From assembly GCA_021234155.1 (NCBI GenBank), contig JAJEKV010000017.1:17618372-17682371 (forward strand): DNA of 64,000 nucleotides, given 5' to 3'. Position 1 is the stretch's first letter. Each line of letters starts with the position of its first letter. The notes under the pieces are model-generated. The model made no database searches, was not told the DNA's origin, and worked only from the letters and a program-made list of their open reading frames with translations. Below, piece by piece: positions 37,814-51,725 of the stretch. The translations under genes and the position numbers were made by a program. The stretch comes from Isoetes taiwanensis (lineage: Eukaryota; Streptophyta; Lycopodiopsida; Isoetales; Isoetaceae).

Positions 37814-39870
37814 TGTGACGTTCCAAGTATTTATACGGTATACGTATAAATATACTGACACGTCACGCAGTAGAGATACGCCACCATGGGGTATTTTAAC
37901 CTAGGGGGTTGACCTAAAAGGGATTAATTTAGCTATGCTAAATTAATTATTAAAGGATAATTACCTATAATTAAGGAAATAGTATTTACTTAACTCAGTT
38001 AAGTTAATTGATTACTTAGGAAGGTACCACCTGGCCAAATTCGATTGGCCAGCATGGAAATGCTAACTTGGGCCATCAAAGTGGATCACCACCCCAATTG
38101 GCCCCAAAATCGAACCAGGAGGAGCAGCTGCTGAGCGTCCCAGTTGCTGAGTGCCCAAGTTTGCCAGGCACCCAAGCCTTAGAAGATGGAGGCACCCCAT
38201 GATAATGGATCAAGTCGAAACTCGGGTTAGTAGATAGTCTAGTTTGATATTTCTAAGGCTAGCGCTTTAGTCAAGTTCTCTAAGTCTTCTCTGGTTGTTC
38301 TAGCTTAGGATTAACCCTTCTTTGATAGTTAGGATTACATTTCAATTATGGATTATGTCTATTATGAATGGATGGATGAATCTATGAAAGTATTTCTGTT
38401 AGCCTTCCGTGAAGCAGGGATTAGAGGGGGGTAGAGACCTCTGTACCATATGCTTTAGTATGCTCCTAGTAGCTCCTTTAATTCCCAATTATTGCGGCCT
38501 GTGCACAAGAGACCACCGAGTCATGGATGCTATGGGATTGCTTAGCACCAGAGAAGGGACGCAGTGGTGAAGTGGGGGTGGGGTCTTGCACGAACATACA
38601 AGGCTCCTGGGACTCCTACAGTGGGCTAGACCTGATAGCCGGTCATGTAGAGGGCCGGGCATGGGTCTGACACTCCCTGGGTGCAGAGGTGTGACCCATA
38701 TGGGGCACCCTGTACTTTGAGTAGATTTAGGGGAGTAGGTCCCCGGGGGATTCACCTCTATTATAGGTATATATGCCATGTGCGTTCCTTAGGTTGCCAA
38801 AAAACCCATTGTATACGACCGTTCCATATGAAAAACCCTTTGTATACGACTACATTATTTGTGAAAGAATGCAGCCCATATCATATAATTACTTGCCCAA
38901 AACACTCTTACTTGACAACCCCTTCCATACATATACGTTATCTCTATTATTTTATATATATAACATATATTATCATAGTCATATCATATTATCACAGAAT
39001 CCCCAACAGTAGAAGCTCACAAAAAATGATGGACCCTTACAGTATGAATATGAATCGAACACTGGCGCAACCACACTCCCTCTGGTATCCGTACGACATT
39101 TAAACTATAAAGACCTTATATTTTTCTTATGTATACAGTACCAGCGAGGCAATACAAAAACCCATTTAATGCACTCACATGTTTCATACCCCATAATCTA
39201 GGTGAACCCCCTGGGAGTAGGTCGGGTAAGGATGCGGGAGTCGCTGATGCGGCACGTATTCTCTAGCTCACCCATGGAACCGCTGTGATCCTGGAAGGGG
39301 ACGCTTCCCTGACCTGCCTCATCGGACAGGTCTTCATGAAACCTGGAGTAGGCTCGAAGGGTGATACCTTGAGTCTGCGTCTCCGGAAGGCTATAGTGAT
39401 GCCATAGCATGATTCGACTCATCTGCAAAGTGTGCACAGGAGGGGCGGATGGAGTGGACAACCCTAGCCAATGTTCTATGCCAGCCAATGCCATGCCAAG
39501 ATTCGGTTTGCTGATCTCTTGAGACCAAGCCGTCAGTCGATCCTCACTGGAGTCTGAGCCGGGGTAGAACCATGGGTTTGGGGTGTTTTCTCTAGTATTG
39601 AATGTATCTTCTCTGTTATTATCAGTTGGATGGATGTGCCGCCCTTCGTGGTGGTATTTATGATATGATTATGTTGTATGCTAACCTTGTATTCACACTT
39701 CCGCGACATAGGAGCCCCATTGAAGGCGTGGGCCGAATGACCCCTCTGTGTCCTTCACTCAAGCATCTTTCCATAGATGGCCCGAGTTAGACGGAGGGCC
39801 CTGCTCATGGCGAGATGGTTGCCATCCCCGTATGTATACAGAGTGCCGTATATGTTCTGGGAGCATCACA
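37814..39870 (+). mobile_element. LTR D, 5' LTR with an inserted MITE
   Basis: Begins TGTGACGTTCCAAG and ends GGGAGCATCACA directly before the primer site. About 1.58 kb once the 472-bp insertion (38741-39212) and one copy of its target duplication are discounted, close to LTR C. Open frames in it (for example 39198-39494 minus) are not supported as genes. Confidence 0.9.
38741..39212. mobile_element. 472-bp MITE-like insertion (MULE type likely)
   Basis: Interrupts the LTR relative to the copy at 46348-47036. It is flanked by GGGAGTAGGT at 38731-38740 and 39213-39222, while the other LTR has a single copy. The ends are inverted repeats: CCCCGGGGGATTCACCT on the left and AGGTGAACCCCCT on the right. 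A 9-10 bp target duplication with terminal inverted repeats fits Mutator-like elements. No transposase frame; non-autonomous. Confidence 0.85.
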
Positions 39871-39886
39871 GTGATATCAGAGCCGT
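39871..39886 (+). promoter_or_regulatory. Primer binding site (initiator-Met tRNA)
   Basis: One base after the LTR end, TGATATCAGAGCC differs by one base from the usual plant site TGGTATCAGAGCC, which pairs with the 3' end of initiator methionine tRNA. The same sequence follows the second LTR at 47038. Confidence 0.9.
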
Positions 39887-40552
39887 GATTTCGGTTGCTC
39901 GAAATCATAGCACTGACCAAACCCTAACTCGTTAGTTCGGTAGTTAGGTGGGAGTTTAGGCTAGTGTGATTGTTTAGCTCTTTGATGTTTGGTTTTGTGC
40001 TAGGTTGATGTAATAGATTGTAAATTTTCTAAGAAGTTTAGGGCGACTGGGGCGACTGAAGTTTAGGGCGCTCGGATGAAGGCGAATATGGTTCCAATGG
40101 ATCGGGCACCTCCCAAATATACCCTAGGGGGCACGTTACCCGAGATCAGAGTGGCGACAACAGGCCGAAAAAGTCAAAGGGGCGCTGCTGTCGGATTGAG
40201 TGTTTTTCTCGGAAAGTTATGACCGTATAACGCTAGCAGCGCCCCATACGGTCCCGCGTATAAAAATACGCGTCCGTTTAAAAAAAAATAAATAAATAAA
40301 TAAAAATTTGAAACTTTTTTCTCAAAAGTTAAAAGTTAAATTCAAATTTGTGTTACTTTTTCAAAAATGTGTTAGTTTGGACGACTTTCTTCCGCCATAG
40401 CCGCCGGACTTGAGCTCCTTTTCCGCCATAGCCGACCTCCACTGATACCTTGCAACCACCCTAAACCCCTAGCGCCTTCGCCTACCCTCTAGTGCTACCT
40501 ATCCAAGCCTAAGCGCCCTACTTATTCTCTCTTGTTGTCCATCGCTAGTGCC
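39887..40552 (+). other. Leader of the retrotransposon with a TATA-like box
   Basis: Untranslated leader. TATAAAAA at 40259-40266 is followed by an A-rich tract (AAATAAATAAATAAATAAAA) and a C-rich stretch with two GCCATAGCCG repeats before the ORF1 start. This could be a private promoter for ORF1 in addition to the LTR promoter. Confidence 0.45.
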
Positions 40553-41857
40553 ATGATGCCGCGTTTCAAGCTCACCGTGGACCTGAACAAGGCGACTGTC
40601 TTCCAGTTGTATAGCGTCTTAGTAGACCATCTTGTAGATGATAGTCCCATGATCGATACTGTTCTCAACCTACTTGTGACTCATTTTACTGAGGGCCGTA
40701 GAATCCCTTACCCCATCTTCCATTTTAATGACCGCTTCCTCATGAAGTTAAATGCTGCAGACCAACCTTACACCCTTGTAGAGCAGCCTGACCAAGCCTG
40801 GGCCATTGTTAAGTTCTATCCACAAGCCGGGCCCGAGGAGGATCCTGCGGAGCTTATCTGGACAGAGGCCCAACGGATTCTACACCTTGCTAGGGTAGAA
40901 GACCTTCAGCAAATAGCCAGTGCCCTACCGGAAGAGCGGGCTAGCAGTTTCTATTACCTTGGTAAAGGCCATGTACTTATGTACAGGGACCATTACAACC
41001 TTCCCCCTTTCTTTTGGAACGAAGAACTGTATAGCTTTGTCTTCGAAAATGTTCCACCCAGCTTCACTCAGGATCGCATGGACCTTGTACAAGCTGACAT
41101 GCGAGCTCACCCGGCCCGGTACCATACGGAGATTGCCAGGCGGATACAAGTGCGTTTGGATAAAGAGGCCCGGGATGCTGAGAGAGAGAGGCTCCGTAAG
41201 GAAGAGGAGGATGCCCAAAACCAGCAGGGCGGGGACCAGCAAGTTGATCAGCAGGGGGGTCAGAATGTTAACTAGCAGGGGGATCAAAACGTTGACCAAA
41301 ATATAGATCAACATGTGGATCAGGACGGAGGCCAGAATACTGTTGTCCCGGATAAGGAGGATCGGTGGAGAAACAGGAAGAGGAAGCATACGAAGCCCAC
41401 ACGGGGAGGCGTCGATTACAAGACCCGGCTTCAGAAGGATGCCCAAATTGGGAAGAACACGTCGGCTCAGTGCCGGGAGCAGATTGTGCAGCGGGCGAAA
41501 CATCCCTCGACCGACGGGAAGTCCTTGCGATTGCTCCAGGCAACTATCAAGCCAAGGAAGCCCCATAGGTTCCGACCGGGCATAGTAGCTCTTCGCGAGA
41601 TATGTAAGTATCAGAAGACTACCGAGCTATTGATACGCCGGCTACCTTTTCAGCGACTTGTCCAGGAGATTGCTCAAGAATTTAAGACCGACCTGAGGTT
41701 TCAGACCTTTGCTATCCTCGCACTCCAGGAGGCTGCCGAGGCTTACCTCATTGAGATTTTGAGTGACGCCAACCTCTGCGCCATCCATGCAAAGAGGGTT
41801 ACTATAATGCCCAAGGACATCCAGCTTGCAAGGAGGATCCGAGGGGAGTTTCGGTGA
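40553..41857 (+). CDS. Retrotransposon ORF1: unknown N-terminal domain plus histone H3 core
   Basis: Starts at one of two adjacent ATGs (40553, 40556). An N-terminal part of about 200 residues has no recognised fold. It is followed by a charged coiled-coil-like stretch ([20 protein letters not shown]) and a Gln/Asp/Gly-rich linker of repeated DQ-x-VDQ units. An in-frame TAG (41273-41275) lies within this linker at a place where Gln (CAG) is expected; the frame continues unchanged past it. Then comes a basic patch (RNRKRKHTK) and an H3 module. From KPHRFRPG (from 41558) to RRIRGEFR at the end there are 99 residues, as in canonical H3, with no indel and about four-fifths identity by eye, including [24 protein letters not shown] and [21 protein letters not shown] shortened H3-like tail ([15 protein letters not shown]) precedes it, but no ARTKQTARKS start. 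Variant residues include Cys at position 52 and Glu-Ile-Leu-Ser near the end of helix 2. It is not CENH3-like, as loop 1 has normal length. Confidence 0.85.
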
Positions 41858-42106: not shown

Positions 42107-43665
42107 ATGGCTCACCCGACGCTACAGCAGTGGTACTTGGACGGAGAGCACTGGGACCCTGCCATTCCCTTTGATCTTCTCCATCCCCATCTGCTCTAGC
42201 AAGTGGACCTTATCACTAACATGCAGGCGCATCCCGACTATGCTGCCTTTCTTCAGTTCTATTGTGAGGAGATCGTACCTGCTTGTGTCTTTAATGAAGA
42301 CGACTCACAGCTCTACCTCGACTTCCACACCTTGCTCGAGATGTTGGGAGGCGATGAGCATGCCAGGAATGTCATTAAGGGCATAAGGAGGAGAGGGACC
42401 GACCTCCCAAGTGGGGGTTTTTTCATCCCGGTAGTAGGGTTCTACTGTACAGTTACATTGTTTGTTTTTGGTGTTGGGGTTTTTGGCTTTTTTGCCTGAT
42501 GTTCTCTGCATGTACCGTCTCATAGGCCTCTGGCCTCCGTGGACGTTAAAATAAACTTCCTTCCTTCCTTCCTTCCTATCATTACTATAGATCGGGAAGT
42601 CTGTTTCGAGGCCCGATTTGCACTGGCCATCATCATGGACCAGTATATCGAAGATAAGCAGATAGCTGCCGAGCAATCTTCTACACCAGTACCTCCTGAC
42701 CCGGAAGATGATGAAGTCGTCGACGAGCAGGACTTTGCACGGTGGAAGGAGTTAGCCACCGAGGCACCGGCAGGACGAGATAAAGCCCCCAAGATCGAAG
42801 GGCTAAACCTCCTCCCTGCCGTACTCTTGAACAACCAAGAGTACTTGACTCTGGAGGACATCATGTGGGCCTACCGCGTCATTGCTGATTGCGGGGTCGT
42901 CGCAAGATAGAAGTCCTCTATGATCTTGCCGAATACTGCCAGGCTGACTTCCTCGACTTTACGACACCGGTTGTGCATCCGCCACAGGTCGAGAACTTGT
43001 TGGTATATCGGCCAGAAGAGCTAGAGCCCGTTGAGACCCTTTTGTCTCTTCGGCAGTTCTTATTGACTGACACACCCCAGCCTTCGGAGGAGCAGTTTGT
43101 AGCTCACATGCGGCCTCCTCCTGTAGATCAGCCATTGCAGATCACCATGGGAGGGGTGGATCAGGGAGAGGAAGACCTTTGGGACACCAAGATGAGCCTT
43201 AGGGATGACAAGGAGGAAGCAGAGCAGGAGAAGATCCCTGCCAACTTGGAAAAGGAAGCAGAGACCTCCAGGGATCCCCAAATCAGGGCGATGGGCAACC
43301 ATTTGACCTGATTCTTCCTTTCCGCCTTCCGGCAAGGTGAGGTCTTGTTCTTCTCCAAGAATTTGGGGCCTTCTTCTGAAGCATCTTGGTGGGCATTTCG
43401 TGCGATATCCACCTTGGCGGGCCATAAGAAGATTGACTATCACGCCACCACCATTACCTTGGTCCGACGAGATTTGGCTATCGTAGCATTGGAGGACGTG
43501 GCGGGCTGCGCTAATATGCGACTCCTTGTGGCGGCACCCTTGGCCACTTGTTTGCCACCAGAGGCAGCAGCTCGAGCCGCCCTCTCTGCTAGCCCCAGCA
43601 CCATCTTGATGCGCTACCGACCACCTCCTCAGCCTATGGACGAAGAGGAGGAACCTAGTTCTTAG
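42107..43665 (+). pseudogene. Retrotransposon ORF2: unknown protein with a possible C-terminal histone fold, broken
   Basis: Opens MAHPTLQQWYLDGEHW and meets an in-frame TAG at 42197 followed by CAA, then continues (QAHPDYAAFLQFYCEEIV). A repeat R2 copy interrupts it (42405-42578). The frame resumes (CFEARFALAIIMDQYIEDKQ), shifts near 42905 (into EVLYDLAEYCQADFLDF), and has an in-frame TGA at 43309. The last part reads LGPSSEASWWAFRAISTLAG and DYHATTITLVRRDLAIVALE, which keeps the spacing of loop 2 and helix 3 of histones: HA-x-x-(I/V)-T-(I/L)-x-x-(K/R)-D as in H3 and H4. The GPSSEA stretch resembles the start of H2B helix 2. A Pro-rich acidic end follows (PMDEEEEPSS). The fold assignment is tentative. 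The four lesions make this copy inactive. Confidence 0.55.
42405..42578 (+). repeat. Dispersed repeat R2, copy 2, inserted in ORF2
   Basis: Begins AAGTGGGGGTTTTTTCATCCC-like sequence without the 5' arm seen at 30674, and ends CATGTACCGTCTCATAGG, GGCCTCCGTGGACGTTAAAA and (CTTC)n. 5' truncation together with a constant 3' end and simple-repeat tail point to non-LTR retroposition. No clear target duplication is seen. Confidence 0.75.
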
Positions 43666-43858: not shown

Positions 43859-44347
43859 TTGTATATTCATTCTTGCCGTCTTACAGACGATGAGCTCGAA
43901 GAAATAGAGGACCGAATAACCAACGAAATACGAAGGGACGATCAAGGACCTCCCGACCAAGATTATGGCCAACGGTACGGGGAGTATCCAGATCGGGATG
44001 ATGACTACGAAGCAGGGGAACCCGTGGAAGAAGGAGAGCCCTATGACTCAGCTAAAGGCTTGGAAATAGTCAATATTCTCCGAGAGCGTGCCTTTGAGCA
44101 GTTACAACAAACTCTCCGACGTACCTGGGATTACTGGGAAATGACAAGGCACGAAGCTTTTGCGGATGCCAATGACCATTTATGGCAGATCTTTTATGCG
44201 CTAAGAAACCTTTTTAATTTGCTCATTATCAGTCCTACCTTAGACTACCAGCATGTTATTATCCAGGCATGGGCTCGCTACAAGGTAGTCAGGGCAGTAC
44301 GGGAGAGCGTCCGCTACTCCATCCTGTACCCTTTTGCGCAGCCCTAG
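43859..44347 (+). CDS. Retrotransposon ORF3, unrecognised acidic protein
   Basis: Open for 162 codons up to TAG at 44347. It may begin at a spliced exon: CTTACAG|ACGATGAG at about 43887 is a good acceptor and the first true ATG in frame is not upstream of it. The N-terminal half is very acidic (DDELEEIEDR, RDDDYEAGEPVEEGEPYD); the C-terminal half is helical and aromatic (LRRTWDYWEMTRHEAF, HLWQIFYALRNLFNLL). The last residues, VVRAVRESVRYSILYPF, faintly recall the H4 C-terminus (VVYALKRQGRTLYGF), which is too weak for a call. No frameshift in this piece. Confidence 0.5.
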   Translation: MYIHSCRLTDDELEEIEDRITNEIRRDDQGPPDQDYGQRYGEYPDRDDDYEAGEPVEEGEPYDSAKGLEIVNILRERAFEQLQQTLRRTWDYWEMTRHEAFADANDHLWQIFYALRNLFNLLIISPTLDYQHVIIQAWARYKVVRAVRESVRYSILYPFAQP

Positions 44348-44626: not shown

Positions 44627-46347
44627 ATGGTCAATATAGACGGTGCACGTAATGCCTCATGGCAGACACCCTCGAATGCTAGCAGATTAACACCTGAGCA
44701 AGAACTCATGTTGATGAAGCGGCAGTTAGTAGAGCTCCAAGCTTATGTGTTAAATGCCAACCCACCACAGCACGTACAGGAGGACCGACCGGAGTTACCT
44801 CCGTTACCACCAAGTCCACCACCACAGCAGCCACTTGCACCAGAACCAGGCCCTGTACCCGCACAAAGGAGGCACCATTCCAAACGTCGTCGAAGCTCGT
44901 CTACGGATAGTGCCACATCTTCATAATCAGCCACTTCTGTGTCTTCAGAGTCGTCTATATCATCTGGTGACCATGCAAAGCGCCGGGACAAGGAGTACCG
45001 TAAGACGGTTGATACGACCATAACCAGTATATGGAAAAACAGGAAACTGGCCCAGTTTGATGGGAAATCTAGAGGCGGCCTGAATGCAGAGTCCTGGTTG
45101 GACGAGATGAAGGAGTTTGAGAAATCCTATGGCATGACGGAGAAAGATACAGGAAAAGTTGCCACCACAAACCTTACAGGAGCCGCTCATATTTGGTGGA
45201 AGGGCTATGCTAGAGCCAAGCATCTGGATAGAAGCAGATGCAAGTTCAAAAAGTTTGCCAAAGCTTTTAAGTCGCATTATGTGCCCCGTGCATACAAATG
45301 CCAACAGATTCAGACTTTTTACAGGTTGGAGCAGAAGGGAATGTCAGTCCAGGCCTACACAGATGAATTCATGCGCTTGAGGCTGTATGTCCCAGGAATG
45401 AACGAGAAGAGGGCGGTGGAGGGCTATATTGAAGGATTGGCCCCCTCAATTAAGCGAATGGTTAAGGCCATAGACCCGAAGTCAGTTGCAGAGGCTGAGG
45501 CTAAGGCATTGAGCCTTGAAAAGGAGACACCAAGAAACCAGTACCAGCATCCTGCCTCTTATTCCCAACTGCGCCCGTACACACCTTATAAGCCCCGTTC
45601 ACCAAGTCCTGGGCCTTCTCAGCAGAACTCTAACGGCCGCCAGGAAAAGAAAGTCACCTTCAACATGCCTGACAAACCGAACAATGTCGGTAAGGAAGTT
45701 CGGAACCTCTTACAAATTACAATCTATTCCCAAAGAGGCCCGAGAGCAGCTCCGCAGAGATAGGGCATGTTACAGGTGTATGCGGCCAGGGCACTTCATG
45801 CAGAATTGCCCTTATGTCACACAGACAGCCCAGCTGGCCATGGCCGACCTCGATTGGGACGATCTCGAGTCTACACCACCTGTCGAGGAGGAGGCTCCCG
45901 AGTATATTCACGGTGCATCTCATATCCTTGCAGCCATTGAAACCAGCAATGCTGAAAGTCAGCCTGCCGTTATTTCCACTATAGGTACACATAGTGGAAG
46001 TACACATAACTTTGCTTCTCCTAGAATGGCCCAGGTGTTGCAGCTAGAGACCTTGAGATCCCGACCAAAACCTGTCACTTTGGCCAGTGGTAAAATCAGA
46101 CATACTCATGGCCGTCGCATTAACCTTAAAATGCAGCTGCCAAGTGCACCAGTTGCATTGGGTGCCGAGTTAATGGATATTGGCAAATATGACCTGATTG
46201 TTGGTATGGAATTCTTGGCATCTACAAAGGCCAATATAGACTGCGAGAAACGAGAGGTTACCTTCAACGCAGCTAATGGAGCCCGCGTAACTATAAAAGG
46301 TGATCCATTAAACCCCATTATGCAGTCTATATCCATCAGGCAGTTAA
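44627..46347 (+). pseudogene. gag-protease of the retrotransposon, with stop, frameshift and mutated active site
   Basis: Starts MVNIDGARNASWQ. A TAA at 44924 interrupts the frame, which continues unchanged. The capsid-like Retrotrans_gag segment follows (SWLDEMKEFEKSYGM, LTGAAHIWWKGYARAK, FKSHYVPRAYKCQQIQTFY, LEQKGMSVQAYTDEFMRL). A frameshift near 45710 is followed by a CCHC zinc knuckle, CYRCMRPGHFMQNC (45768-45809), and a retropepsin-like domain (YDLIVGMEFLASTKANIDC). The catalytic site reads THSGST where DSG(A/S)S/T is expected, so the catalytic Asp is His (CAT at 45990). Coding homology ends abruptly at 46347 where LTR sequence begins; reverse transcriptase and integrase are absent. Confidence 0.85.
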
Positions 46348-47036
46348 GGGGCACCCTGTACTTTGAGTAGATTTAGGGGAGTAGGTTGGGTAAGGATGCG
46401 GGGGTCGCTGATGTGGCACGTATTCTCTAGCTCACCTATGGAACCGCTGTGATCCTGGAAGGGGACGCTTCCCCGACCTGCCTCATCGGATAGGTCTTCA
46501 TGAAACCTGGAGTAGGCTCGAAGGGTGATACCTTGAGTCTGGTCTCCGGAAGGCTATAGTGATGCCATAGCATGATTCGACTCATCTGCAAAGTGTGCAC
46601 AGGAGGGGCGGATGGAGTGGACAACCCTAGCCAATGTTCTATGCTAGCCAACGCCATGCCAAGATTTGGTCTGCTGATCTCTTGAGACCAAGCCGTCAGT
46701 CGATCCTCACTGGAGTCTGAGCTGGGGTAGAACCATGGGTTTGGGGTGTTTTCTCTAGTATTGAATGTATCTTCTCTGTTATTATCAGTTGGATGGATGT
46801 GCCGCCCTTCGTGGTGGTATTTATGATATGATTATGTTGTATGCTAACCTTGTATTCACGCTTCCGCGACATAGGAGCCCCATTGAAGGCGTGGGCCGAA
46901 TGACCCCTCTGTGTCCTTCACTCAAGCATCTTTCCATAGATGGCCCGAGTTAGACGGAGGGCCCTGCTCATGGCGAGATGGTTGCCATCCCCGTATGTAT
47001 ACAGCCGAGTGCCGTATATGTTCTGGGAGCGTCACA
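46348..47036 (+). mobile_element. LTR E, 5'-truncated LTR
   Basis: Matches LTR D from GGGGCACCCTGTACTTTGAG (38702) to the end, GGGAGCGTCACA, without the MITE. It is joined to the protease region at a GGGG microhomology. It is followed by a primer site instead of host DNA, so it is shared with, or belongs to, another element in tandem. Confidence 0.85.
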
Positions 47037-47240
47037 GTGATATCAGAGCCGTGATTTCAGTTGCTCGAAATCATAGCACTGACCGAGATCATAGCACTGA
47101 CCGAAATCTCGCGCAGATATTGGTAAGCTGGCCGAGATTGGAAAGCCGGATTTGAAGCAAATTGATGTTGATTTTTATGAAGGAGTCTTGCAACAGCATA
47201 TCAAGAATGTATTGGAGCTGAATTCTTTAGAACACTGACA
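47037..47240 (+). mobile_element. Primer site and short leader of a second, truncated element
   Basis: TGATATCAGAGCCGTGATTT is repeated after LTR E, and TCGAAATCATAGCACTGACC is shared with the leader at 39899; a short ATCATAGCACTGACCGA unit is then duplicated. From about 47110 an open frame (KLAEIGKPDLKQIDVDFYEG) runs to TGA at 47236; its family is unknown. Confidence 0.6.
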
Positions 47241-49323: not shown

Positions 49324-51725
49324 CTAACAAGCCTTGGCTAGCAGCAGAACTTTTCTTTTCTTTGAGGCCTTAGCCAATGCCTTATGCAACTGTGGAGTAG
49401 TCTGTCTCGCAATATTCTCTTCATGACGAGAAATTACTCTCCTGTAGAACCATTGTGCCATCTGTATGAGTGGATTTGACAAAGAATGTGATCCTCCACG
49501 CTGAGTCTTCCAGTTATATGCAATCTTGGTCTGTTTGTGGGACTTCTCCATACCTTGCGTGTTCCAAATTGATAAGCTTCCATACTTTTGAGCAAACCAA
49601 GGCCCATGAGCATATATGATGTGGACATAATGAGTGACCGCTGTTTCACCCCAGGCCTGAATGTATGCATGTGTAAATTCCCTGACCACCACCCTAAACC
49701 TGGCTATTTCAGCCTCAGTTAAATATGTCTTCTGTAAAAGGGTGTTCAAATTTGACAGGGCATTCCATGCAGCCACTTTTCTCACAGTACCATTCATGCC
49801 ATCTATTCTATCCCTTTCAGCCTCCACTAATTTCAGACCAAATTCATAAACACCACCCTTAGCATTCTCAGGCCTGCTCAAGAAATGCCTAGCTCTAACT
49901 CCACTAATGGATACCTTGGCTGGGACTGAGGCAGCTTTTCCATTACCCGACTTCTTGTGGTCTTGTTCCAGTTTGACACATCCACCATGCAAGCCTGCCT
50001 CGAACAATACTTTTTCAACCCTCTCAATGCCTTCTTCCCTCTCCTCCCCTCGGATGTTCCAAACTAAACACTCCCAGTGATGTATCATCTTCTCCATAAT
50101 CTTGACAAGTGCATGAAGAGTGCAGATATGCACTCTTTCTAGTGGTATTGGGAGTATTGGATCAAATGTGTCATCCTTCAAGTGACGATCATGAGGCATG
50201 TTCTGATCACATTCAAGAGTGCTCTTGGACCCTTTCTTATTCTTCTCCTTCAATGTGTAGCAGCAATAAATACAATTCCTTGTGGTCTTGGCACCTAAAG
50301 AACTTATGTTATACATAGCCTTTTTTGTCGTCAGGTCGCATGCCAAATGGAGATTAACAATAAAGGAACCATGGCCTACAACACTTAATTTCTCACCATT
50401 GCCATACATACCTAGCAGCCTTGGGATATTTGTCTGGTCAAAAACCCATTTCAAAACATTGTAGTTCTCGTTCTGAACCTGGAACATGCCCAACCACCAA
50501 GTATGGTCTTCTGATTGCACAGAAAATCAATCTGGATCCCTAATTTTCTTCTTCTTGTTCCTTTCCTCATCATACTTGCTCGTGAATGCTCGCTCATCGA
50601 AATGGATACTCTCTCGTACTTTGTTCTGTGTGACATCTCCATCTCATCCAGCTTCAAGCAAATTTCGAGTTGCCCATTCACCTCTACCTCCTGTATGTCA
50701 TAGTAAACAATCATGAAACTTAAAACCTTATCCAATTCAAACCCCACATTATTTTTGGCATGCAGTCCAAAAATATCTCTCTCTTTACTTCTTGAGCCTT
50801 TTTTGGGATCTTTTCTAGTTTTTTTTTTGGCACCCTTACTGTTCCCAACGGTAACTGGAGCTGCAACAAGAAAATCACATTCCAGAGAATGCATGTTCCC
50901 TAATATTTCACTTACTGAAATGTTTTTCCTCCTTTTGATTAGATCTAAGCTGTAGGATCTAGGGATGACAATTTTCTTTGTATTGAATGACTTCAAAGCA
51001 TCATAAAATGGCTTGAACAGCAACTTGTAGCCATGCCTACTGATCCCTACAGTATCACAAACCTCTTGAACTTTGGATGCATCAATTTTAGAGTATATCT
51101 CGCCAACCACATGTTCGAGCACTCTTTTCCAAAGACCAATGTTTGAAGGGTCATCAAGCAAGGAAATTATCTCATCATTGTTGTTGTAACAATCTGTCCT
51201 ACATTGTGTGGCCTCTTTGTGTTTAACACATTCTTCATTGCATAAATTCTTCTCTTGGTAGACCATACCTCATATCCAAGTTCTCAATTGGTTTTTCCCT
51301 TTCTTCCTTTCTCGCCATCCAAGAGAGGTCCTCGTCATCCGGGCCAATCTCTTCTCAGCAGATACAAGTTTCCTCTTCAACTCATTTGCACGATTGCTCT
51401 CTGACTCACATTCTCGCTGTGTCAATTTCAACACACAATTAGCAAGCGTTTTGTCAGCTTCAAGCTGCAATATGTCATTTTTTAATTTTATGATTGTCTT
51501 CTCTTTCTCCTTCATTGCACTTTCCATTGGCATGCTTGTTCTTGCTAAATTATAGAATTCTTCATTTCGTTCGTGCATGCACCTTAATAATCTGTGAATT
51601 TCAGCCAACAATTGGCCACTGTATTGCATCATGTTTGTGCAATATCCAAGCAAACCTGATTTACCTTCACAAGCAAACTTTACTAAGCTGGCAACCGAAT
51701 TAAAATCTGGATGATGTTCGGTCAT
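49324..51725 (-). pseudogene. Transposon-type gene of unknown family, broken by a stop and a frameshift
   Basis: Minus strand, apparently intronless. First segment, 151 codons (51725-51270): starts MTEHHPDFNSVASLVKF and has a long coiled coil (KEKEKTIIKLKNDILQLEAD, ANELKRKLVSAEKRLARM). An in-frame TGA (51270-51272) separates it from the second segment (51266-50451, 271 codons; KVQEVCDTVGISRHGYKLLF). The frame then shifts near 50500 into a 398-codon segment (50520-49324). This has a CIYC...C zinc-finger-like cluster near its N-terminus, HICTLHALVKIMEKMIHHWE, AWGETAVTHYVHIIYAHGPW and GMEKSHKQTKIAYNWKTQRG. The motif style (a THICTLHA-type helix, then EKSH-x-x-K, then a basic Lys-rich end) is that of repeated, transposon-borne proteins of lower plants and animals; I cannot name the superfamily. 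Terminal inverted repeats were not found. Confidence 0.6.

Follow-up and report, generated by a model that had tools for sequence, protein, structure and literature searches.

A histone H3 core encoded upstream of gag by a family of Ty3-type LTR retrotransposons in the genome of Isoetes taiwanensis

The window analysed here, a stretch of 64,000 nucleotides of Isoetes taiwanensis DNA (contig JAJEKV010000017.1, positions 17,618,372 to 17,682,371), was found to contain a copy of an LTR retrotransposon whose features all lie on the plus strand. A 5' repeat (39213..39918) consists of an LTR part that runs to 39871, a primer binding site (PBS)-like site (TGATATCAGAGCC, 39872..39884) and the start of the leader. 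It is followed, in this order, by ORF1 with a histone H3 core (40553..41857), ORF2 (42107..43665), ORF3 (43859..44347), gag and an aspartic protease (44627..46344) and a 3' repeat (46345..47084). ORF2 is broken in this copy and measures about 460 aa in relatives in which it is open, while ORF3, of 162 aa, starts from TTG in the ORF listing; no known family was identified for either product. The gag product possesses a Ty3 capsid (Pfam Ty3_capsid, 1.1e-17) and a weak zinc knuckle, and the frame of the gag and protease region is broken. The 3' repeat directly adjoins the protease region at about 46345 and comprises an LTR that runs from an internal point to 47037, followed by a second PBS and leader stretch. 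When the 5' repeat is aligned with its match at 46377-47084, 691 positions agree, 14 are mismatched, every one of these by a transition, and 4 columns hold gaps, corresponding to a K2P distance of 0.020.

The first-pass annotation of this DNA had described a young Ty3-type element with the H3-encoding frame situated between the primer site and gag. The Ty3 type and the position of ORF1 are borne out, with the amendments that ORF2 and ORF3 also precede gag and that the window copy, for all the low divergence of its repeats, is a rearranged remnant and no intact young element, since reverse transcriptase (RT) and integrase are missing and both repeats extend beyond the end of the LTR to take in the PBS and part of the leader. 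No RT, RNase H or integrase was found between the two repeats. Inside ORF2, approximately 160 extra bases at about 42409-42570, with CTTCC repeats at their end, are absent from five relatives; these look like a short insertion, perhaps a SINE. Elsewhere in the window, on the minus strand at 49324-51725, three consecutive long ORFs of 398, 271 and 151 aa gave no Pfam match at E<=0.01 and are perhaps a broken DNA transposon or gene.

The frame of ORF1, at 40553-41857 as originally annotated, amounts to 434 codons and a stop at 41855-41857, with one in-frame TAG at 41273-41275 in the window copy that had gone unmentioned. Its N-terminal domain (40553..41230, limit approximate), for which no known family (Pfam) or fold was found, is followed by a Q-rich linker, a basic segment that takes the place of the H3 tail (41405..41557) and a histone H3 core of 99 residues (41558..41854, positions 37-135 in H3 numbering). 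Using the segment after the TAG, the core was identified by the Pfam Histone model with E=1.1e-40 and 139.1 bits against a cut-off of 26.4, and it was found to be colinear with H3.3 of the PDB (E=1e-49) without gap or indel, in agreement with the indel-free 99-residue core claimed at first. A chance likeness is excluded.

The claim that the H3 tail had given way to a new domain and a basic, Q-rich linker is likewise supported by the alignment of ORF1 products. The canonical H3 N-terminal tail (ARTKQTARKSTGGK) is absent from the 17 ORF1s aligned, and neither canonical ARTKQTARKS nor AARKS is present in the basic segment of the window copy; K4, K9 and K27 are thus missing in their usual contexts. 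The possibility that the tail-like segment is a remnant of the H3 tail, for which 'STGGK' is suggestive, was rejected as unproven, because, in 2000 shuffles for each of five tails, the alignment score was reached 79, 108, 265, 361 and 1283 times. An identity as CENH3 was also considered and rejected. CENH3 has a longer loop 1 and a divergent alpha-1, while in the rows that could be read without gaps loop 1 does not depart from the canonical length.

The nature of the carrier could be read from a relative, C949 (L032, L037), in which ORF1 is open and matches to RVP_2, RVT_1, RT_RNaseH, rve and Chromo (3.2e-8) lie downstream. This gives the order protease, RT, RNase H and integrase with a C-terminal chromodomain; gag is also present, and the RT is split over two frames in the assembly. 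The LTRs of C949 are at least 836 bases long with a K2P distance of 0.027, and the whole element is at least 12.4 kb. Its PBS is TGGTATCAGAGCC, which we take to be the usual initiator-Met PBS of plants; the LTR analysis of C949 gave a TGGTATCAGAGC PBS. On this domain content of C949 the carrier is assigned to the chromoviruses, the Pfam scan for RT (frames of at least 120 aa) having covered C949 alone among five relatives taken over 9 kb. Two of the remaining four relatives end or break off within gag. The C949 chromodomain, read by eye, lacks two of the aromatic residues, the first and the third, and so shows the pattern described for type II chromodomains in the available text of PMC3350952 and PMC6317226.

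A hAT-borne H3 was considered as another candidate and rejected, LTRs, gag and pol being found instead of a transposase and terminal inverted repeats. No inverted repeats of at least 80 bases were found at 34000-56000 of the window. Two observations were made on neighbouring sequence of related loci. At about 5769-8602 of L035, a related copy is broken within gag by approximately 2.8 kb of other sequence. Downstream of C949, at 4062-6000 of L037, a gag/protease-like coding stretch with a repetitive proline-rich region was recognised by eye, and this is perhaps a different retroelement.

Searches were performed on this one genome (1,110 contigs, 1,658,258,908 bases). With ORF1 as the query, a DNA search (best 40 of 1,696 candidates) gave at least 43 matches of 80-100% identity, the window copy included, and 34 of these 43 span nearly the whole query. 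Among the 30 best matches that were fetched, the H3 core is readable without a split in 27 (the split cores of L015, L016 and L021 were dropped from the core alignment) and unbroken in 22, this being the 27 minus L008, which is partly out of frame, and minus four with a stop; eight of the 30 are therefore broken.

A profile search with the Pfam Histone model (best 150 of 8,704 candidates) placed 15 host H3 genes with a canonical tail at the top, with 135 rows ranking below them. The next 15 rows (L053-L067), read as loci, were all found to have element-type cores; one of them, L067, duplicates L010, and another, L066, gave no match to the first motif used, yet has a full H3 core in the alignment. 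Four more, L068-L071, were read by region and had been picked for their long frames. A few short-frame rows among the remainder of the 135, leaving aside those that coincide with the fetched loci L001-L030, may be host genes. Many copies of ORF1 are broken. Of the 135 rows that rank lower than the host genes among these best 150 candidates, 29 were found to lie in open frames of at least 430 aa, and a frame of more than 380 aa is open through the H3 core in 17 of 48 distinct copies sampled, four of the 48 being those picked for long frames. A search with the N-terminal domain of a second lineage, lineage B, gave matches of 47 to 100% identity (best 150 of 2,440).

The H3-bearing ORF1 is a family trait in the Isoetes taiwanensis genome and not a single copy. 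The single captured pseudogene that the first-pass annotation had named as the opposing case does not fit the presence of the trait in two lineages, nor the finding that the N-terminal domain and the H3 part are both encoded in 30 of the 30 fetched loci, a count partly built in, because loci were ranked on the whole of ORF1 and complete copies were favoured.

The two lineages are deeply separated, yet their domain order is the same. Lineage A includes the window copy and lineage B is made up of L056 and L068-L070, with identities between the two of 35-39% in the N-terminal domain, 39-41% in the tail-like segment and 80-83% in the H3 core. A further copy, L072, has an N-terminal domain 53% identical to that of lineage B and an H3 core that is present and broken by a deletion and a stop. 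In L056 of lineage B, ORF2 again follows ORF1. Between the lineages ORF2 is 45% identical (L056 2125-3330, L035 3080-4468), and in its predicted structure residues from about 44 to 120 are the main confidently modelled part.

A tree was built from 39 rows (33 element H3s, four host and two Arabidopsis sequences), from which the five sequences whose core is interrupted by a stop codon (L020, L026, L027, L028 and L058) were excluded. With a bootstrap that had not settled, the element H3s were found to group together in a single clade, separate from host H3 (95/88), within which lineage A (100/97) and lineage B (99/96) are separated. This single clade supports one capture of H3 as the most likely origin, and together with the many copies it sustains the view that a host-type H3 was acquired by a Ty3-type element. 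Residue H87 is common to lineage B and, among the 15 host rows, to the H3.3-type gene L052 only, which is a weak hint that the source may have been an H3.3-type gene.

The first-pass annotation had further proposed that the histone fold was kept under selection, and the pN/pS of the H3 core was found to be far below 1 across copies, and not near 1, the outcome that it had named as speaking against function. Pairwise comparison, in which copies are treated as independent and in which pS reaches saturation both between lineages and in comparisons with the host, gave a pooled H3 core pN/pS of 0.082 in lineage A (780 pairs from 40 rows, with L020, L026, L027, L028 and L058 kept and the stop codon in their core skipped). 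The partly out-of-frame L008 and the repeats L032-L036 and L067 were dropped from these sets. A value of 0.093 was obtained in 26 rows chosen by DNA likeness to the whole of ORF1, the H3 core being under a quarter of the query used to choose them, and values of 0.072-0.095 were obtained across subsets of open lineage-A frames. Overall, the lineage-A range was 0.07-0.13 for the H3 core against 0.18-0.24 for the N-terminal domain. Fourteen open lineage-A frames gave 0.084 for H3, 0.237 for the N-terminal domain, 0.375 for the linker and 0.237 for the tail-like segment, and a set of six lineage-A copies gave 0.127 for H3, 0.142 for ORF3, 0.155 for ORF2, 0.244 for the N-terminal domain and 0.306 for gag (the gag value from 10 of 15 pairs). 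Variants of the H3 core shared by at least two copies showed a pN/pS of 0.089 against 0.299 for singletons, the pattern to be anticipated where constraint operates during the active life of the copies.

In three lineage-B copies (L068-L070) the ratios were 0.000 for both H3 and the tail-like segment, 0.214 for the linker and 0.275 for the N-terminal domain; the H3 value carries little weight because the core hardly varies, with a pS of 0.036 against 0.435 in the N-terminal domain. These three copies look like mosaics, or like copies between which the H3 part was exchanged by recombination or conversion. The H3 core was the most constrained part, or tied for it, in every set compared. A captured host chromatin domain is thus found to be kept in many copies, with ratios that indicate strong purifying selection on the H3 core. 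That the core is a functionless passenger, captured and then multiplied along with the element, would be compatible with the eight broken cores among the 30 fetched, and the H3 of one fungal hAT family did end in this way, with all but the original gene inactivated (PMC6710886); this reading is contradicted by the data so far, since pN/pS is close to 0.09 and both lineages have open frames, and its likelihood is negligible.

Comparison of the core with host H3 showed that 77 of the 99 positions retain the host residue in 90% or more of the 44 element rows, with 44 positions invariant across all 59 rows. Several differences from host H3 are fixed or nearly fixed. At position 60, lineage A has P (38 of 40 rows) and lineage B has F (all four), position 64 is R in 39 of 40 and position 134 F in 40 of 40 rows of lineage A, and position 87 is F in all 40 of lineage A and H in lineage B. 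Position 86 is A or T, position 89 mostly I, position 102 E, D or A (G being kept in one lineage-B row), position 105 S or G and position 107 A in 44 of 44 rows, while the residue preceding K37 is R in the aligned lineage-A frames. With 25 positions that we take to be DNA contacts and 17 that we take to belong to the H3-H3 interface region, 21 of the former and 14 of the latter were kept at 90% or above; those below are positions 41, 42, 64 and 86 for DNA contact and 107, 124 and 133 for the interface. The AlphaFold model of ORF1 was poor even for the H3 part (mean pLDDT 49.4) and lends the nucleosome reading no structural support.

These residue patterns bear on two alternatives. A histone fold can serve in other proteins as a dimerisation module, and in ORF1 it might do merely this, with no tie to nucleosomes; the residues taken to contact DNA are, however, no less conserved than those of the dimer face, and this explanation is very unlikely. 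The second alternative concerns the stretch 87-90, which reads mostly FAIL in lineage A and HAIL in lineage B against SAVL, TAVL or HAVL in the 15 host rows, and which is involved in chaperone recognition (PMC9145170). With this stretch altered, the H3 core could act in trans as a poison that competes for histone chaperones or caps host nucleosomes, loosening silencing genome-wide. By reasoning, a benefit in trans would be common to competing elements and hard to maintain by selection in each lineage, and host H3 is abundant, so that such a role is rather improbable.

The reading favoured here, with a rough probability of 0.6, is that ORF1 encodes a working histone of the H3 type in which an element-specific module has replaced the modifiable tail and which acts for its own element. 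The three roles suggested in the first-pass annotation, namely packing of the element's DNA, marking of its chromatin at insertion and disturbance of host nucleosomes, are all treated here as hypotheses. That the product is a functional H3-type nucleosome subunit appears likelier still, while a role in tethering or anti-silencing is put forward tentatively. As selection has kept H3 nearly unchanged, the element probably works by entering or reshaping plant chromatin; selection on the H3 core alone does not establish nucleosome entry. From the conserved residues, the H3 core is expected to pair with host H4 and to enter host nucleosomes or (H3-H4)2 tetramers. Less certain is that ORF1 would act in cis, tied to the RNA, particle, cDNA or insertion of its own element, which is suggested because a diffusible benefit would be common to competing copies.

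Action in cis would also be inherent in the main rival explanation, according to which the H3 core and host H4 are packed in the particle or on the cDNA for compaction or protection and never meet host chromatin. The linker is basic, and DNA viruses are described to encode histones that form viral nucleosomes (PMC9145170), but most residues of the H3-H3 interface and of the nucleosomal DNA path are kept, beyond the needs of simple DNA binding, and we regard packing as unlikely.

Under the favoured reading of a tail-swapped histone that serves its own element, the N-terminal module may tether the particle, cDNA or integrase complex of the element to nucleosomes, which is a guess, as this domain matched no family or fold. 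Lysines K4, K9 and K27 of the H3 tail carry silencing and other marks, and a new copy could be wrapped in chromatin that is without them. The favoured role would be docking or self-marking, with a tail unable to take the usual silencing marks. To our knowledge, integrase chromodomains of the type found here, without an H3K9-methyl cage, have no known partner. An improbable extension is that the chromodomain of the element's own integrase reads the element's own tail-swapped nucleosomes as a private chromatin address, and if this were true the element would carry both a histone mark and its reader.

Histones are the host's main tool for the silencing of transposons. If the favoured reading is true, the family would represent a direct instance of a transposon that writes chromatin of its own, with the tail lysines that bear silencing marks removed and a new module in their place. 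It would offer a testable system for how integrase locates chromatin, for histone evolution outside host genes and for the partner of type II chromodomains, which is described as not yet identified in the available text of PMC6317226.

No retrotransposon-encoded H3 was found among the titles and beginnings of abstracts listed from the open-licence literature, and the word 'histone' is absent from the available main text of the Isoetes taiwanensis genome paper (PMC8566536). The element resembles the plant chromoviruses of PMC3350952 and PMC6317226 in its gag-PR-RT-RH-IN order and C-terminal chromodomain, but as described in the available text of these sources they have no element-encoded histone, and that of PMC6317226 makes no mention of an additional or extra ORF or of 'upstream of gag'. 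Capture of host genes by retrotransposons is known from other cases, including an AlkB domain captured by orchid Gypsy elements (PMC9289625) and captured cytosine methyltransferases (DNMTs) such as that of KnitGypsy-Dnmt3 (PMC5890265). The latter is, like the Isoetes element, an LTR Gypsy element of the green lineage with a host chromatin gene, its Ka/Ks being <0.2, but its enzyme lies inside the pol frame, whereas the captured product in Isoetes is a structural protein, a histone, and has an ORF of its own ahead of gag.

H3-like genes have been described within hAT DNA transposons of the fungi Pyrenophora tritici-repentis (PMC3538342) and Pseudocercospora fijiensis (PMC6710886). In both cases an H3 core is borne and multiplied by a transposable element, but the carrier is a DNA transposon in the fungi and a retrotransposon in Isoetes. 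Furthermore, the H3L of Pyrenophora may have drifted (PMC3538342) and the H3 copies of P. fijiensis were inactivated except for the original (PMC6710886), whereas the Isoetes H3 is fused to a new domain and under strong selection in two lineages. Single viral histones, namely the bracovirus H4, which joins host nucleosomes, and the xenomavirus H3 (PMC9145170), resemble the Isoetes system in that a single histone, close to that of the host but altered or lengthened in its tail, is encoded by a parasite. These are encoded by DNA viruses and are described as having longer tails, whereas in Isoetes the H3 core is fused to an N-terminal domain of approximately 220 residues and is carried by an integrating retroelement.
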